Assembly (NCBI GenBank): GCA_030016635.1
Contig: JASEJQ010000011.1
Coordinates: 1-50,374 of the forward strand
Source: Thermoanaerobacteraceae bacterium
GTDB lineage: Bacteria; Bacillota; Thermoanaerobacteria; Thermoanaerobacterales; UBA4877
Length of the DNA stretch: 50,374 bases
Direction of reading: 5' to 3'
Below, one piece after another: positions 21,508 through 34,141 of the stretch (position 1 is the first letter of the stretch; each line of letters starts with the position of its first letter). The notes beneath the pieces are model-generated. The model was not told the DNA's origin. It did no database searches and saw only the letters and a list, made by a program, of their open reading frames with translations. The position numbers were made by a program, and so were the translations under genes.

Positions 21508-22233
21508 TTACCCCCTGTCCCTATAAATATTCACCACATACTTAAAAACATCAGAACGATAGAAAGAAATCTCATAGAATACCGGCCTGTCAGACATGTT
21601 GATGCTTTCCACCTTTAAAAGCGGTATGCATCCATCTGTAGACAGAATTTTCTCTAGATAATGGTCGCTCATCACCGCCTCAAAACTTGCCTTGGATGAG
21701 GTAACCTCTATGCCGTATTCCTCCTTTAATAACTGGTACAGTGACCCTGTGAGGTCCAGACCGTCTATCCAGGGAGCATACCTTTCCGGTATGTAATCAG
21801 ACTCCACAGCCACCGGCACATTATCCGCACACCTCAGACGGGTGATTTCAAACATCCCCTCCTGTTCATCCAACATGAATTTCTCATGAAGCTTGCCTGC
21901 TATTGTCTTTTTTAAGTCTATTACCTCCGTTGAGGGCACCATCCCCATGTCCTTTACCATCTGGGTGAAACTCATTATGTTCTTCTGCTCTATCTTGGGC
22001 CTGGCCACAAAGCTGCCGCGCCCTCTTTCCCTAACGATAAGTCCATCGTCCTCCAGCTCCTTTAATGCCTGCCTCACTGTCATGCGGCTTATGCCATAAC
22101 TCTCGGAGTATTCCCTCTCGGATGGTATAGGAGAACCCGGCTTTAGCACCCCGCACTCTATGTCATCCTTTATGAGGTTTTTAAGCTGAAAGTAAATAGG
22201 AATTGGACTCTTCTTGTCTATCTCCATATCCAT
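21508..22233 (-). CDS. nagR: GntR/HutC-family regulator of amino-sugar genes (NagR/YvoA-like)
   Basis: A 241-aa regulator with an N-terminal winged HTH ([17 protein letters not shown]...[31 protein letters not shown]) and a C-terminal UTRA effector domain typical of YvoA/NagR, which senses phosphorylated amino sugars. The ATG at 22233, or 22227 two codons on, is the start. The frame stays open for 300 bp upstream only because it reads through the mobile element at 22316-22569, and no family sequence is found there. The operator over its own promoter predicts autorepression with nagB. Confidence 0.92.
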
Positions 22234-22243
22234 CACCGAGATT

Positions 22244-22279
22244 ATTATAACATATATATGTATAGTTGTATAGACCATT
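22244..22279 (-). promoter_or_regulatory. nagR-nagB promoter with overlapping NagR-type operator
   Basis: On the minus strand AATGGTCTATACAACT (22279-22264) resembles the dre operators of YvoA/NagR, whose core is TGGTNTAGACCA-like. TATACA (-35) lies inside it, and TATAAT (22249-22244) follows 17 bp on. The start point would fall only 4-10 bases before the nagR ATG, so the mRNA is nearly leaderless. Confidence 0.65.
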
Positions 22280-22287
22280 TTAGATGA

Positions 22288-22315
22288 AATAAAAACTGCA
22301 GTGCAGTTTTTATTT
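22288..22315. terminator. Palindromic terminator originally serving mtlD
   Basis: AATAAAAACTGCA and TGCAGTTTTTATT pair perfectly around a one- or two-base loop, with T-rich sides in both directions. It is now 260 bp from the mtlD stop because the mobile element is inserted in its right arm. The 12-bp flanking direct repeat of that element is part of this arm. Confidence 0.75.
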
Positions 22316-22569
22316 GGGTGTAAGAACCACATTTGAGCATGACATATAGCATCAGATGCGGCCTTAAAGAGAGTCCATGATGCTCTTGGATTTGCAGCAA
22401 ATGAAGCAGGGACATCCGGCATGGACGCCGGATGAGCCGACCTTAAGGCTTGTGACGCCGAATGGAGGCGTACCCTGCGAAATGCAGCGGCAAATATTAG
22501 AGTATCAGGACGAACGATCAGGCACATGGATGCTGTTGGCATACCAATATAGACTTCTTACAGTGTAGT
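22316..22569 (+). mobile_element. Non-autonomous structured repeat element, copy 1 (254 bp)
   Basis: This copy matches the element at 33267-33518 (opposite strand) along its length, with long identical blocks. Shared pieces are GTGTAAGAACCA at the 5' end, a GGACGCC-GATGAGCCGAC block, GACGCCGAATGGAGGCG, and ATTAGAG-ATCA-GACG near the 3' end. It is flanked by the direct repeat CAGTTTTTATTT (22304-22315 and 22570-22581). The outer ends share TGTAAGAA in inverted orientation. It contains hairpins CATCCGGC/GCCGGATG and CGCC/GGCG and no credible coding frame. It lies directly after the mtlD stop. Confidence 0.85.
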
Positions 22570-27740: not shown

Positions 27741-28241
27741 TTAATCATTGCTGCCCCCACCGCCATTATTCCTGTGCATAACCTTATAATAGTAGTATAC
27801 TATCACCACACCGACGCCCACCAGAACAGGTTCGACATCTGAAGCTATCACATCCACATCCATACCTACAAAATCACCACCCAGGCGACCTGTCACCTGA
27901 TTACCGTTAATCTCCATGTCTATATCAAAACCCACCACATCTCCTCCGCATCTGCCTGTGACTCCATTGCCTACGGCATTTACATTGATATCATTGCCGT
28001 CAAAAATTCCGCCTATCCGTCCGTATGCGCAGCCTTTTGTCAGGTTCATGTCCACATCCTTACCCACTATAATGCCGCCTATCCTGCCCTTTAAATACTC
28101 TTGCTCAAAATCATAGTCTAAGTCAATGTTAGCCCCACCTATGGCGCCTCCAAGCCTGCCTTCCACCTTTCCACTGTCTACTGTAATGTGAACATCATAT
28201 CCCCCTATTGCCCCGCCTATCCTGCCGTCAATATGTCCCAT
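27741..28241 (-). CDS. Glycine-rich GRIGG-repeat protein with a C-terminal membrane anchor
   Basis: A 166-aa protein of unknown function. About six repeats of roughly 20-23 residues follow the pattern GR(I/L)GG-x3-G-x-D-(V/I)-D-(x)n, starting at DGRIGGAIGGYDVHI and ending at GRLGGDFVGMDVDVI. The regular alternation suggests a beta-solenoid. It is followed by one hydrophobic segment (VLVGVGVVIVYYYYKV) and a short HRNNGGGGSND tail. There is no signal peptide. The ATG at 28241 is preferred because GAGGAAGG lies nine bases before it. It overlaps the HAD gene by 14 bp and is the last gene of the UPF0182 operon. Confidence 0.8.
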   Translation of the reverse strand: MGHIDGRIGGAIGGYDVHITVDSGKVEGRLGGAIGGANIDLDYDFEQEYLKGRIGGIIVGKDVDMNLTKGCAYGRIGGIFDGNDINVNAVGNGVTGRCGGDVVGFDIDMEINGNQVTGRLGGDFVGMDVDVIASDVEPVLVGVGVVIVYYYYKVMHRNNGGGGSND

Positions 28242-28884
28242 CTTTAACATCCTTCCTCAGTAAATCTACTATTTCCCTTGGGTCATTAAACACATATTTC
28301 GGGTCCAGTTCTAAGAGCCTTTCAGGATTTTTTGAGCCCCACATTGCAACCCCAAAGGGCACACCTGCAGACCTGGCTGATAGAAGGTCATAGAGACTAT
28401 CACCCACATAAAGTGCAACATTATTCTTTATATTAAGGGTTTCAAGAGCCTTTAATATCGGGTCAGGATTGGGCTTGGGCCTTTTAGCATCGTCGGCACA
28501 GACTATAACATCGAAGTCTTTTATTATCTCATCCAGAATCCTCTCAAAAGATAGCTCATACCTAGTCTTGGATGTAACTAAACCGGTTAAATAACCCATT
28601 CCCTTTATGGCATCCAGCATTTCAGGTATACCGGGAAAGAATGACACCTTATCATATTGCTCTAAGAAATACCTGTCCCATAGCTCAATGGCCCTCTCCT
28701 TTTCAGTGACACCAAATATATCCATTGTCATGCTTCCCGTTATGCCCATGCTCACATATAGTTCCTCATCGCTGTATTCTATGCCTGTAAACTCCACGAG
28801 AACCTTCCTTAATGAGTTTACAATGGCATCTGTTGTATCAATTATAGTCCCATCCACATCGAATAGTAATGCCCCATAGCCCAT
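28228..28884 (-). CDS. HAD-family phosphatase (phosphoglycolate phosphatase/PpaX-like)
   Basis: A 218-aa HAD hydrolase of subfamily IA. Motif I is LLFDVDGTIIDT, motif II is LVTSKTRYE, and motif III plus the metal Asp are in KPNPDPI and LYVGDSLYDLLSARSAG. It is soluble. Possible substrates are phosphoglycolate or pyrophosphate (PpaX-like), and the sequence does not decide between them. It lies 12 bp after the selenoprotein gene in the same operon. Confidence 0.9.
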   Translation of the reverse strand: MGYGALLFDVDGTIIDTTDAIVNSLRKVLVEFTGIEYSDEELYVSMGITGSMTMDIFGVTEKERAIELWDRYFLEQYDKVSFFPGIPEMLDAIKGMGYLTGLVTSKTRYELSFERILDEIIKDFDVIVCADDAKRPKPNPDPILKALETLNIKNNVALYVGDSLYDLLSARSAGVPFGVAMWGSKNPERLLELDPKYVFNDPREIVDLLRKDVKDGTY

Positions 28885-28896
28885 CCTGTATCCCCC

Positions 28897-29184
28897 TTAA
28901 AATAGTTTAATGCCCTCAACACCCAGACGGCTTAATAAACCAAAACCTTCAATATATAGCTTGAGGCCATCCTCTTTTACATCAATGCTTTTTGCTACAT
29001 ATACCTCAAATCCATCAACAGTATAGGAATCAAACCTATCTGCATCCTTAGGCTTACCCATCATAACTGATGGGATTGGCACCCGCACTCAGCATGAGGT
29101 TGGGAATGTCAGGTCTATGGTTATCGCCCCAGCATTCCTCTTTTTCAGATAGTACTTTACCTTATCTCCTATATCTATCCTCAT
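28897..29184 (-). CDS. Selenoprotein of the CC/Se-motif type (in-frame UGA = Sec32)
   Basis: Read from ATG 29184 (GGGGG seven bases upstream), the frame gives MRIDIGDKVKYYLKKRNAGA, then ITIDLTFPTSC, a TGA at 29091-29089, and VRVPIPSVMMGKPKD onward to a normal stop, 95 residues in all. The next gene upstream encodes a paralogue that aligns end to end without gaps around this point and has Cys where the TGA lies (SCC against SC-TGA). A hairpin of bacterial SECIS type follows the TGA at the right distance. A conventional reading would keep only a 63-aa fragment from GTG 29088. The vicinal Cys-Sec pair suggests redox or metal binding; no reaction is known to me. Confidence 0.9.
29057..29091 (-). 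promoter_or_regulatory. Bacterial SECIS-like hairpin after the in-frame UGA
   Basis: After TGA (29091-29089) and 14 bases of spacer, CCCATCA (29074-29068) pairs perfectly with TGATGGG (29063-29057) around the loop GTTA. bSECIS elements need a short stem whose apical loop starts with GU about 16-37 nt after the UGA. Here the loop starts 21 nt after it. This supports Sec insertion and not a nonsense mutation. Confidence 0.82.
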
Positions 29185-29195
29185 AGTTCAACCCC

Positions 29196-29489
29196 CTATA
29201 AAACCTTTACACCATCTACAGCCGGCCTGCTCAAGAATGATAGGCCCTCCATATAAATCTTAAGGCCTCTCTCCTTAACCTCTACCATGTTATGCACATA
29301 GACATCGACACCGTCTACATCAATCCTCTCAAACCTATCCAGTCCATTATCCTTTGGCTTTCCAATCTCAACTGATGGAAAGGCACCGGGTACACAGCAG
29401 CTATCAGCAGTCACCAGTTTGATTGTTATGGCTGACTCACCCTTCTTTTTTAGGTATTCCTTTACCTTCTCATCTATACTTATATTCAT
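29196..29489 (-). CDS. CC-motif protein, cysteine paralogue of the adjacent selenoprotein
   Basis: A 97-aa protein with an N-terminal helix (IDEKVKEYLKKKG), a beta strand ITIKLVTA, the vicinal pair DSCCVPGAFPSVEIGKPKD, and a C-terminal half VDGVDVYVHNMVEVKERGLKIYMEGLSFL. It resembles small HesB/CC-motif proteins. It is clearly a tandem duplicate of the selenoprotein gene 11 bp downstream, with Cys replacing Sec. The role is probably thiol redox or metal handling, by inference. It lies 12 bp after the UPF0182 gene with a GGGGG ribosome site. Confidence 0.85.
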   Translation of the reverse strand: MNISIDEKVKEYLKKKGESAITIKLVTADSCCVPGAFPSVEIGKPKDNGLDRFERIDVDGVDVYVHNMVEVKERGLKIYMEGLSFLSRPAVDGVKVL

Positions 29490-29501: not shown

Positions 29502-32216
29502 TTACTCCTGATTTAATATGTTGCCAAGCTCATCCATCAACCTTCCAAACTCAGTGAAGTCACCAGTCTTCAAGGCATCTACGGCCCTGTTGTAAGCATC
29601 TCTTATCTGTCCCAAAACGTCTGAAGGGGCGGTGGGCATAGTGGGCGGAGGGACTTCAGTTTTAACCCCTATGAGTTCATTAAGTGCCTCTTCTATAGTG
29701 TTTGACATCACTATCTTAGAACCATCGGATACTATTATGCGTTTTACCTCCGGTATGCTGTTTTCTGCGCTGGAGGCTATATAAAGGGGCTCTACATACA
29801 GTATGGATCTATCTATGGGTATTACCAGGGTATTCCCCCGTATTACTGATGACCCGCTCTGATTCCACAGGGTTATCTGTTGGGATATATGGGCATCCTC
29901 ATCAATACGGGCTTCCACTTCCAAAGGTCCATACACGTGGATGTTTTTGGGAAACTCATAGACCCTTAAGACAGGCTTTCCAGTCTCTATATCCACGTAT
30001 CCTGACATCCAGGATATCATGTTGTTCTTAGTGGCAGGTGTATAAGGCACCATTAAAATAAAGTTCTCATCCTGGCCATTATCGGGCAATGCCATATACA
30101 CATACTGAGATTCTATATTCTGAACCTCTTCCTGATACCTCTCCTTGGCTATCTCCCAGAGGTCCTCCTTATTATAGAAAACCTGTTCATTATCCATATG
30201 GTAGGTCCTGTACACATCGGACTGTATGTCAAACAGCGTCTGAGGATACCTGACGTGTTCCCTCAGGCCTTCTGGCATTTCTTCAAAGGACTTGAAAAGG
30301 GATGGGAATATCCCTTGATACACCTTTATGACAGGGTCATTGGTATTATAAATATAAAAGTCGGTAGATCCATTATAGGCATCAATGACTACTTTCACAG
30401 AGTTTCTTATATAGTTAAACTGTAAACCACCTATAGTAGACATAGTAGAATACGGGAAATTGCTGCTCACTGTGTATGCATCTATCATCCAGTAGAGTTT
30501 GCCGTCATCAACTACTAGATATGGGTCCTCGTCGTACATCAGGAATGGTGCTATCCTCTGTACCCTGTCCATTATATTTCTGTTTATCAGTATCCTGCTA
30601 TCCGGGCCAATATCACCAGAAAGGAGCAACCTAACATCACCGGTATATATCGTATATAAAATCCTATTGAATAAACCCAGTTTTGTACCGGATTCTCCCT
30701 GGTAGACCGTATATATATTTTCCTCTCCTGAGCTGGCAGGATAGTCAAATTCCTTTGCATTGGTGTTAACTATGACATAATCATTGGTCAGCTCTCCAAA
30801 ATAGATCTCCGGTCTATCAATTTTTATGCCTCCCTTTGGCGGTATGTCCCTGACCATAAACTCCGGTTGTCCTTCTGGCGTTACCTTGTTTACCGGGGTT
30901 CCCACAGCACCGTAACCATGGGTGTAGACCAGATGCATGTTTATCCATGACCTTGCCTGGTCTGAAAGCCTGTTTTTGTCCAGCTCTCTTGCCGAAAGGA
31001 AAACCTCTGTAGGATTTCCATCTATCACATACCTGTCTATGTCCACGTCGTTAAACCTGTAATACATCCTTATACCTTGAAGCTGGTTATATACCTGTAT
31101 AATTGGCCTGTAGTCATTAATCCGTATATTGTCAATGGTATTTTTATTTTTCTCCATGTCTATGTTCCTTATATCCTGCACCTCTCCAAAGTTTACCCTC
31201 TCTATATCACCCAGCCCATACGCCATCTGGGTAAATTCGATATTATTTTTAATATAAGGTCTCTCCCTGGAGAATTCATTGGGCGATACAATAAAGTTTT
31301 GAACAGCGGCACTGGCTATATATGAAACTATCACTACTGCAACTACCAGCAGTGGACCTGCTGCGGTAAGCCTGATATTTCTCCTGAGACCCCCTACAGC
31401 AAACATGATCCCTGCTGCAAGGCATACAACAATAAGTATCCTGTTAAAGAGCAGAGTTACATTGATATCTGTATAGCCCGCCCCATACACCACTCCCAGC
31501 GGCGAATTTAATAAATTAAATCCTTTTAAATAATAACCGAAGGAGAGGAGTACAAAAAACACCAGTCCAAGTATAGCCACCTGATTTATGGCTATCATGA
31601 TTATTTCCCTATTCGGTATAGACCGGAATGCATGACTTTCCTCTGAATATCTGAAAAATCTCGTGGCATTGGAATAGTACATGAGTACATACATTATGGC
31701 AGTAAGTACCGCCAGAACGACGATCAAAAATAGAATAAAATCGTAAAGGCCATTCAAAAAAGGTAATTTAAATAAATACAGACTCAGGTCCTTATTGAAA
31801 ATAGGGTCTTTCTCCCCAAAGTTGACGGAATGGTAAAAGTTTAAAAAACTCTGCCACATGGTGCTGGCAAACTCTAATGCCATGACCACAGATATAAGCG
31901 CAGAACCCCACAGCACAAAGGTGGTGAGCCTCTTTGTTTCCCTGGGTGACAGTACATCCCCGGTATATCTTATGTAATCCCTCTTTATCTTGTTGAAATA
32001 GAAATACAGAAGTAGAAAAAGTATTAAGAATGCAGGAATACCAAGCTCCAGCTCAGCAAAAAACTTTACGAAAAAAATCTTGCCATAGCCGAGGCTTGAA
32101 AGCCATTGATAGCTGACTATGAGCCCTGCTCCACCTGCAATAATGATAAACAATATCACCACAAAAGCTATCACATATAAAAACCAGCGTCCAGATAGAT
32201 TAAACCTGGTTGGCAT
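29502..32216 (-). CDS. UPF0182 family large membrane protein
   Basis: A 904-aa protein of the UPF0182 family. It has about seven N-terminal membrane segments (first VIAFVVILFIIIAGGAGLIV; SLGYGKIFFVKFFAE is a family pattern) and a long extracytoplasmic domain with WINMHLVYTHGYGAVGTPVNKV and DIPPKGG. The C terminus is proline-rich and then helical (PPPTMPTAPSD). The function of the family is unknown. It is the first gene of an operon with the two CC-motif genes, the HAD gene and the repeat-protein gene. Length and motifs are complete. Confidence 0.92.
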   Translation of the reverse strand: MPTRFNLSGRWFLYVIAFVVILFIIIAGGAGLIVSYQWLSSLGYGKIFFVKFFAELELGIPAFLILFLLLYFYFNKIKRDYIRYTGDVLSPRETKRLTTFVLWGSALISVVMALEFASTMWQSFLNFYHSVNFGEKDPIFNKDLSLYLFKLPFLNGLYDFILFLIVVLAVLTAIMYVLMYYSNATRFFRYSEESHAFRSIPNREIIMIAINQVAILGLVFFVLLSFGYYLKGFNLLNSPLGVVYGAGYTDINVTLLFNRILIVVCLAAGIMFAVGGLRRNIRLTAAGPLLVVAVVIVSYIASAAVQNFIVSPNEFSRERPYIKNNIEFTQMAYGLGDIERVNFGEVQDIRNIDMEKNKNTIDNIRINDYRPIIQVYNQLQGIRMYYRFNDVDIDRYVIDGNPTEVFLSARELDKNRLSDQARSWINMHLVYTHGYGAVGTPVNKVTPEGQPEFMVRDIPPKGGIKIDRPEIYFGELTNDYVIVNTNAKEFDYPASSGEENIYTVYQGESGTKLGLFNRILYTIYTGDVRLLLSGDIGPDSRILINRNIMDRVQRIAPFLMYDEDPYLVVDDGKLYWMIDAYTVSSNFPYSTMSTIGGLQFNYIRNSVKVVIDAYNGSTDFYIYNTNDPVIKVYQGIFPSLFKSFEEMPEGLREHVRYPQTLFDIQSDVYRTYHMDNEQVFYNKEDLWEIAKERYQEEVQNIESQYVYMALPDNGQDENFILMVPYTPATKNNMISWMSGYVDIETGKPVLRVYEFPKNIHVYGPLEVEARIDEDAHISQQITLWNQSGSSVIRGNTLVIPIDRSILYVEPLYIASSAENSIPEVKRIIVSDGSKIVMSNTIEEALNELIGVKTEVPPPTMPTAPSDVLGQIRDAYNRAVDALKTGDFTEFGRLMDELGNILNQE

Positions 32217-33126: not shown

Positions 33127-34141
33127 ATGGATAATAAGATAGATAGCTTAGTCAAGGTTTTAAAAAACTTAACAGCGGAGATAACCCTCAAGAGGTCAGA
33201 AAAGAGGCCCGAAAAGTAACAGAGGGAATTACCCCTGCTGAACTTTCCGAAGCAGAACAAAAATTGATTTTAGTGTACAAAGTAGTATTCTACGAATGAT
33301 AGCAACATCCATGCACCTGATCGCACGTCTTGATCCTCTAATAATTCGTGGCTGCGTTCCGCCGGGTGCGCCTCCATTCGGCGTCCATGCCTTCCCGTCG
33401 GCTCATCTGGCGTCCTTGTCAGATGAGCCGGCTACACTTGCCACTTATCAAGAGTACCATAGACTCGCTTTAAGGTTGCATTTAATGTTGCATATCATTC
33501 TCAACATGGTTCTTACACCAGAACAAAAATTGGTTGAAGAAGGCATGAACCCTGAGGAACTTAGAGACCTCTGCTCCGTACACATGGAGATGCTGTCTGG
33601 AAAACTGGAGGGTTTCAAAGCGAGGCTGGAAGCAGGTTCTATGCTGCATACATTAGTCTCAGAGCATGATGAGATACTCAAGTTTTTAGACAGGCTGGAC
33701 TATATAAATAATGTTATACAGAATATAGACACATACCAGCCAGAGGCAATTGTATTTAAAGACCTAAAGCACGTTGCTACTCACTTAGTAGAGACTGAAA
33801 AACATCATCAGAGGGAAGAGGATGTACTATTCCCTGAGCTGGAAAAGAGGGGTATAAGCGGTCCGCCGAGGATAATGCGGATGGAGAATGACCAGCTAAG
33901 GCCACGTAAGAGAAGGTTAAAGGAGATATCGGAAAATGTGCAGAATATGAACTTTACTGATTTCAAGAATGAGCTTACAAAGTTTATAGTCTTCAACCTG
34001 AGAGACCATATATTCAAAGAGAATCATATACTATATCCCACTGCTTTTGAAGTCATTAATGACCCGGAGGTTTGGGAGAAGATGCTCGATGAGGCTGACC
34101 AGATTGGATATTGCTGCTTCACCCCGGGCAAACAACAGTAA
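33127..34141 (+). pseudogene. DUF438/hemerythrin-domain gene broken by a frameshift and a mobile element
   Basis: The gene starts at ATG 33127 (GGAGG eight bases upstream) with MDNKIDSLVKVLKNL. A one-base deletion near the A/T-run at 33158-33172 shifts the frame, and the DUF438 sequence continues as SGDNPQEVRKEARKVTEGIT...AEQKL up to 33266. The 252-bp element at 33267-33518 is inserted there. Coding resumes at 33521 with EQKLVEEGMNPEELRDLC, then a hemerythrin-like region (EHDEILKFLDRL, LVETEKHHQREEDVLFPELEKRGI). It ends YCCFTPGKQQ at 34141. An open frame from ATG 33296 inside the element joins the second part. The usual C-terminal PAS domain is absent. Confidence 0.85.
33267..33518 (-). mobile_element. 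Non-autonomous structured repeat element, copy 2 (252 bp)
   Basis: The reverse complement matches the copy at 22316-22569, with the same length within two bases. It is flanked by the exact 14-bp direct repeat CAGAACAAAAATTG (33253-33266 and 33519-33532). Removing 266 bp rejoins the DUF438 frame as AEQKLVEEG. It has a 10-bp hairpin GGCTCATCTG/CAGATGAGCC in the place where copy 1 has CATCCGGC/GCCGGATG, so base-pairing is kept while sequence changes. No transposase gene is in the window. Confidence 0.88.

Follow-up and report, generated by a model that had tools for sequence, protein, structure and literature searches.

A predicted selenoprotein gene of the CC/Se motif family beside its cysteine twin, and a related bacterial clade with two consecutive UGA codons

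Introduction

The window analysed in this study is a stretch of 50,374 nucleotides of DNA from a Thermoanaerobacteraceae bacterium, and it contains a short reading frame that is interrupted once by TGA, next to a similar gene with a cysteine codon at the same place. The question raised by this locus is whether the TGA ends translation or is read as selenocysteine (Sec). An answer assigns a real product to a gene that standard gene callers may truncate.

Results and Discussion

The reading frame and its operon

The features of the locus are as follows.

29502..32216, minus strand: UPF0182 protein, next gene upstream; gene order the same in the relative G001
29196..29489, minus strand: Cys twin, 97 aa, motif S-C-C-V, NF041239 62.1 bits; no hairpin found at the corresponding place
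28897..29184, minus strand: CC/Se motif family selenoprotein gene, 95 aa, Sec codon 32, motif S-C-U-V, NF041239 64.3 bits (cut-off 40)
29089..29091, minus strand: UGA, putative selenocysteine codon; the twin has Cys (TGT) there
29057..29074, minus strand: SECIS-like hairpin CCCAUCA-GUUA-UGAUGGG, 7 bp, loop 21 nt after the UGA, -9.9 kcal/mol
28228..28884, minus strand: HAD-family hydrolase (PpaX/phosphoglycolate phosphatase-like), next gene downstream; gene order the same in G001

The frame running from 29184 to 28897 on the minus strand was intact: it had 95 codons, ended in TAA and was interrupted only once, by an in-frame TGA as codon 32. The initial annotation, made from the sequence letters, had described this frame and its TGA correctly without giving the strand. 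It had also predicted that a standard gene caller would reduce the gene to a 63-codon fragment starting with GTG, and codon 33 is indeed GTG, so that a caller stopping at the TGA leaves this fragment. These 63 codons contain neither a further stop nor a frameshift, at 53% identity to the twin. In the comparison of the Sec gene with the Cys twin, dN was 0.49 and dS 1.15 on the 5' side of the TGA, and dN was 0.36 and dS 2.5 on the 3' side. As dN is lower than dS on the 3' side, that part of the Sec gene is under purifying selection.

The twin aligned to the Sec gene with an E value of 2e-32, S-C-C standing against S-C-U. It had been called a gap-free paralogue with Cys at the TGA position; the Cys was confirmed, but the alignment has one gap of two residues, after KPKD. 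Neither protein has Cys or Sec beyond the motif pair, which in the Sec protein is Cys31-Sec32. An in-frame UGA and homologues with Cys at the site, two of the marks of a bacterial selenoprotein gene, are both present for the window gene.

The row UPF0182 - Cys-Cys - Sec - HAD is co-directional with spacings of 11-12 nt, and a GGGGG stretch was found 5' of each of the three starts examined (Cys-Cys, Sec and HAD). No promoter-like or terminator-like match was detected on the minus strand from 31135 to 28679, within and between the twins included, the promoter search covering the sigma-70 consensus only. The UPF0182 and HAD neighbours gave no clear clue to function. In the family tree, the Sec gene is sister to a clade consisting of the Cys-Cys twin and its relatives (support 100/94), and the twin pair therefore arose by duplication, as had been suggested from the tandem arrangement.

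Membership of the CC/Se family

Both window proteins scored over the cut-off of the profile NF041239, 'CC/Se motif family (seleno)protein', and show the residues of its site (Cys-Cys or Sec), as C-U and C-C. Score, length and site are what they share with this family. Table 1 of PMC13188914 places the family among the high-confidence predicted selenoproteins with one Sec, as a 'hypothetical protein predicted in Moorella thermoacetica'. The motif in that table is CxxU, whereas G, S or T mostly precedes Sec in the proteins studied here.

A survey of 398 genomes of the phylum found the family in 89 at E 0.001 and in 85 over the cut-off; 136 members were fetched and four matches were not. The states of the site in these 136 members were GU (62), CC (26), SU (19), UU (11), TU (6), CU (3) and nine others, three of which end in Sec (VU, NU and AU). 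The family was absent from the 14 named control genomes, and a plasmid search gave no match. The family tree, which is unrooted and was built from 145 rows and 96 columns, with one double-UGA row (L088) on a long branch, has 11 changes of the single-Sec state and 12 of the Cys-Cys state. Two members in one genome (L113; G406:C13:28056-28307 and 31701-31967) were broken by TAG or TAA and are probably decayed copies; the same genome also has UGA forms.

Selenocysteine machinery

In the window's genome (2.35 Mb, 114 contigs), selD, selA, selB and selC form one cluster on contig C33, with scores of 391 for selD, 587 for selA, 418 for selB and 74 bits for the tRNA-Sec (anticodon TCA). The selD gene itself has one in-frame TGA. 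The absence of selB and selC, named at the outset as a finding that would speak against a selenoprotein, is thus not the case, and the claim of a true selenoprotein was supported by the complete set of sel genes and by the match of both twins to the CC/Se family. A reading of the UGA as tryptophan was set aside because of the tRNA-Sec with anticodon TCA.

Among the 76 genomes with a UGA-bearing member, 73 had a selA match, compared by eye with 272 of the 398 genomes of the whole sample. All 12 sampled genomes with only non-Sec members had a selA match too (ten at E 1e-154 or better), and the presence of selA does not separate Sec genomes from Cys genomes. The three UGA-bearing genomes without selA were two drafts (G200 and G272, the latter with selB over the cut-off) and G208, whose family member is cut short.

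The hairpin downstream of the UGA

The perfect 7-bp hairpin that had been noticed 14 nt 3' of the TGA, with a loop beginning with GU, was confirmed (stem CCCAUCA/UGAUGGG, loop GUUA). The criteria for bacterial SECIS elements, as set out in PMC13188914, are a loop of 3-9 nt, a stem of 4-16 bp, G in loop position 1 or 2, a distance of 16-37 nt from the UGA and an energy of -7.5 kcal/mol or lower. The window hairpin agrees with this published model on every point (a 4-nt loop starting with G, a 7-bp stem, a distance of 21 nt and -9.9 kcal/mol). In the 81-nt stretch a competing fold wins: the minimum-energy fold there is a different, longer pairing, and the 7-bp hairpin is present in the centroid structure.

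Taken by itself, the hairpin is only moderately unusual. The z score against shuffled sequences was only -1.2, and an energy of -9.9 kcal/mol was reached by 9 of the 1188 coding positions sampled, by 3 of 60 synonymous recodings with GC3 weights and by 17 of 2000 recoded according to the codon usage of the window. Of 28 stop codons of window genes, one was followed by a hairpin of -7.5 kcal/mol or lower. An Rfam scan of the locus returned nothing meaningful, the one match being a chance match to an lncRNA model (E 2.9).

The weight of the hairpin comes from the family-wide comparison, in which the script scored unbroken stems only. A SECIS-type hairpin of -5 kcal/mol or better was found in 94 of 110 Sec members vs 6 of 34 Cys-Cys members (Fisher 4e-13), sets that include members from related genomes and six genes from a pattern scan that itself required part of the hairpin. 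Without these six genes the Sec count was 88 of 104, and with near-copies removed the comparison was 66 of 77 Sec members vs 5 of 27 Cys-Cys members. At the published limit of -7.5 kcal/mol, the hairpin was found in 44 of 110 vs 5 of 34 (p 0.007). Several of the 16 Sec members (of 110) lacking an unbroken hairpin of -5 kcal/mol look like carriers of mismatch-bearing stems.

The stop-like TGA of the window gene almost certainly codes for selenocysteine. As in the known bacterial mechanism, SelB loaded with Sec-tRNA would bind the hairpin, with its loop 21 nt past the UGA, and the ribosome would decode codon 32 as Sec. The product would have about 95 residues and a predicted HesB/IscA-like fold, with Cys31-Sec32 as the sole Cys or Sec residues. 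Duplication would account for the Cys-Cys twin in the same operon, with no order of the Sec and Cys states implied. The window gene is very probably a real selenoprotein gene belonging to a catalogued family and is, to that extent, of a kind already known. On the evidence of sequence, the explanation as a whole, namely an NF041239 selenoprotein with its codon-32 UGA read through the hairpin, a duplicated twin and a paralogue with two UGA codons, is very probably correct.

A third paralogue and the double-UGA clade

The third paralogue lies on another contig of the window's genome.

G000:C37:53682-53933 (L082), minus strand: third paralogue with two adjacent TGA at the family site, 3' of a Ppx/GppA-type gene and 5' of tRNA-Leu

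Its start is seemingly a TTG directly after the Ppx/GppA-type stop. It scored 54.0 bits against NF041239 as a typed protein and 42.7 in the genome search; among four other double-UGA proteins scanned, two were over the cut-off (48.9 and 45.7) and two below it (34.3 and 33.7). The window's genome has Cys-Cys, Cys-Sec and putative Sec-Sec (double-UGA) versions of one protein.

In the phylum sample, all 11 family matches with two TGA codons have them adjacent, and in each of these genes a hairpin with a loop of 4 nt follows the second UGA, at a distance of 21 nt in 10 genes and of 24 nt in one. These genes were found by profile, in a search that required neither UGA adjacency nor a hairpin. The distance of 21 nt from UGA to loop is also that of the single-Sec gene of the window. 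A pattern scan of named genomes, in which UGA-UGA and part of the hairpin were required, yielded 11 places. Six of them were new, including Alkaliphilus peptidifermentans, and four were judged to be repeats of sampled genomes, such as those of Thermovorax subterraneus and Thermosediminibacter litoriperuensis. The remaining place, in Polaromonas (L084), was rejected as a chance match with a frame unlike the family. The total is 17 distinct double-UGA genes in 16 genomes. Within the window, the bare pattern TGATGA gave 23 matches and was uninformative.

Sixteen hairpin sequences were aligned, comprising 15 double-UGA genes (five from the pattern scan) and the window gene; one of the two genes omitted is codon-shifted and the other is identical over the stretch. 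In this alignment 97.3% of cells pair, vs 30 to 46% when the alignment was slid. The covariation score exceeded that of all 500 shuffles, and two pairs were changed on both sides, a number reached by 115 of the 500. In the clearest covarying pair, CCA occurs with ATG or GTG, and CCG occurs with ACG or GCG in four of six cases. Eight pairs of double-UGA genes were compared, and dN was lower than dS both 5' and 3' of the UGA pair in every case with a computable dS.

A single branch of the tree separates the 16 double-UGA rows from the others (98/94; 99% of bootstrap trees). In a search with a clade profile, the 11 double-UGA genes all had E values of 1.2e-21 or better and the next was 7.9e-13, and this search found no Cys form of the clade among the 398 genomes, with at most 12 candidates scored per genome. 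All ten double-UGA genomes of the sample have selA. One double-UGA gene (L088) comes from a metagenome-assembled (MAG) contig whose label, Propionibacteriaceae (Actinomycetota), is distant from all other hosts, which suggests either a transfer or a misbinned contig.

From these comparisons we infer that both UGA codons are read as Sec, the two consecutive codons sharing one hairpin. It is likely that this is a bacterial family with consecutive Sec, in which one SECIS directs the decoding of UGA-UGA to give a vicinal diselenol or diselenide that is kept, despite deep divergence, in all clade members found by profile, with the gene often beside aldehyde:ferredoxin oxidoreductase (AOR) or arsenic genes and with three versions of the protein in one genome. 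The new element is the conserved, putative Sec-Sec variant, together with the series Cys-Cys, Cys-Sec and Sec-Sec in one genome.

No case of adjacent Sec-Sec in bacteria was found in the literature searched, whose coverage was incomplete, and Table 1 of PMC13188914 has no family with an adjacent U-U motif. Two consecutive Sec codons occur likewise in algal PDI_e (PMC7539508), in a paper that calls itself the first report of consecutive Sec. PDI_e is a disulphide isomerase of algae, whereas the proteins studied here are bacterial, with a predicted HesB-like fold, and their two UGA codons are followed immediately by a single hairpin that lies within the coding sequence. Bacterial proteins that contain two or three Sec are also listed in Table 1 of PMC13188914 (MbdU, UxxU forms and arsenite methyltransferase fusions), some of them with a metal or arsenic context by name. 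Five double-UGA proteins scanned against the models of multi-Sec families gave no score over the cut-off.

The double-UGA clade poses the question of how SelB, with one Sec-tRNA at a time, serves two UGA codons before the ribosome melts the hairpin, and would offer a natural vicinal Sec-Sec site. The three forms of one small protein in the window's genome lend themselves to a comparison of what selenium contributes.

A decayed copy in a relative

The most telling single test was provided by the only same-family genome returned by the search (G001), in which the order UPF0182 - Cys-Cys - HAD is kept. Between the stop codon of its Cys-Cys gene and the HAD gene lie 210 nt, which aligned to the Sec gene with a score of 190, vs 85 for the best shuffle (n=300). 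This copy of the Sec gene (L021:1795-2001) has several deletions and a broken frame, and its Sec codon is now TGG; the Cys-Cys twin beside it is intact. G001 had no selA match and no selB over the cut-off. In the counterpart of the sel cluster, of which 10 kb were examined, a selB remnant, its 50-residue tail, stood beside a tRNA-Sec-like gene, and neither selA nor selD was present. The tRNA-Sec-like gene (L207:4674-4770) shares 82 of 93 bases with that of the window's genome and scored 50.7 bits, over the cut-off of 47 and compared with 74 in the window's genome, under a model that also passes other kinds of tRNA in several genomes. It may be intact, being over the cut-off, or is possibly decaying. 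G001 can be read as a genome that apparently lost Sec decoding, in which the Sec gene decayed and the Cys twin was retained. A decayed copy in a relative seemingly without Sec decoding shows what selection holds in place.

G014 has only the Cys-Cys form and is likewise without selA. In the other relatives with non-Sec forms, selA was absent from G012, G016 and G018, weak in G007 and G020, and present in G011 and G021; G018 had a tRNA-Sec match of 75 bits though no selA match. A candidate double-UGA remnant behind the Ppx gene of G001 was rejected, only the first 40 nt or so being alike and the whole alignment (73.5) scoring below the best shuffle (88.5). The shortened UGA-type member of G208 (L171; G208:C31:44768-44920), in a genome with no selA match and no selB over the cut-off, may likewise be left over from a time when Sec was still decoded.

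Alternative explanations

The decay seen in G001 bears on whether the window gene might itself be a pseudogene of the Cys twin, with the second Cys codon turned into a stop and translation ending at residue 31. UGA is one base change away from a Cys codon, and the function could be covered by the twin, but true decay, as in G001, consists of deletions and frame breaks, whereas the 63 codons 3' of the TGA have acquired no other stop or frameshift despite their divergence from the twin, with dN well below dS. A pseudogene would also fail to account for the hairpin, for the Sec machinery and for the pattern seen across the family, and this explanation is considered extremely improbable. The tandem might instead have a regulatory role as a selenium switch, selenium scarcity causing a stop at codon 32 and lower HAD expression, with the Cys twin taking over. 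The twins share one apparent operon in which the Sec gene is directly 5' of HAD, and selenium-dependent expression of Sec/Cys isoforms is reported for Methanococcus maripaludis (PMC11097638). Against such a switch stand the lack of any promoter-like or terminator-like consensus match within or between the twins on the minus strand (sigma-70 consensus only) and the rarity of the arrangement: of the 12 sampled genomes whose fetched members include both a Sec form and another form, the window's genome alone has the two in tandem (on one strand and at most 3 kb apart). The suggestion of selenium-dependent expression in the initial annotation found no support in this co-directional operon without a promoter-like or terminator-like match between the twins, and a switch appears improbable.

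A further alternative concerns function rather than decoding, the protein being regarded as an A-type iron-sulphur cluster carrier (IscA/SufA/HesB) with Sec in place of a cluster-binding Cys. The structural models of the double-UGA protein (pLDDT 93.9, pTM 0.84) and of the window Sec protein (mean pLDDT 69.7) both matched IscA, SufA, DsrR and related folds above others, with modest Z values of 3.3 to 5.4; these matches are weak, the best Z values being 5.2 and 5.4 and the best Foldseek E 0.011. By title or by what we take the entries to be, 9 of 9 and 10 of 11 rows in the two listings have the HesB/IscA fold, some of them presumably HesB-type entries. The twin also had a weak match to Pfam Fe-S_biosyn (PF01521), but at 17.5 vs a cut-off of 26.3, and the Sec protein had none. 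Sequence searches of the PDB gave no match at E 1 with the alignment and one meaningless match at E 1.7 with the twin. A-type carriers have three cluster-binding Cys, two of them near the C-terminus, whereas neither window protein has a Cys outside the pair, which makes the classical three-Cys role unlikely; the carrier explanation as such is improbable. The earlier description of the protein as HesB-like holds only weakly, at the level of the fold, and fails at the level of profiles, as the Fe-S_biosyn scores show. HesB-like selenoproteins are themselves known in Sec forms (PMC13188914). With the HesB-like selenoprotein model (TIGR01911) and the IscA/HesB models (NF038090, PF01521), the window proteins may share the predicted fold and have a weak profile similarity, but no match was over the cut-off, and they have no cysteines outside the pair.

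Possible chemistry and the neighbours of the double-UGA genes

For the selenoprotein reading, the most likely chemistry at Cys31-Sec32 would be thiol-selenol redox or a soft-ligand centre for a metal, metalloid or chalcogen. At nine of the 17 double-UGA loci, a gene of the aldehyde:ferredoxin oxidoreductase type ends at most about 450 nt before the UGA pair, and eight of these nine also have a gene with an Fe-hydrogenase domain after it; one representative of each neighbour type was scanned and the rest were assigned by BLAST cluster. Four other loci have a setting that hints at arsenic. ArsR-type regulators were found near the double-UGA gene in Anaerosolibacter, in Alkaliphilus and, without anything more specific, in a Syntrophomonadaceae MAG; ArsA-type ATPases were found in Anaerosolibacter, Alkaliphilus and a Clostridia MAG, the last of which also has an arsenite methyltransferase. 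The remaining four loci, that of the window's genome included, have neither setting. As a lead, these neighbours might point to redox or soft-ligand chemistry at a vicinal thiol or selenol pair.

At four double-UGA loci (L074, at +1919 to +3971 from UGA-UGA, and also L075, L077 and L086), a gene that we take to be formate dehydrogenase-like was split into two ORFs 12 nt apart, as is expected if that gene too carries a Sec codon.

Other observations in the window

The predicted N-termini of two proteins, at about 22230-22542 (minus strand) and 33296-33508 (plus strand), were alike by eye and out of place. One of the two proteins is presumably a GntR-type regulator and the other a DUF438/hemerythrin protein. 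They were not among the results of a repeat search at 45 nt, whose one weak 45-nt pair was of no relevance. The look-alike N-termini are probably starts called too far upstream, over similar non-coding DNA.
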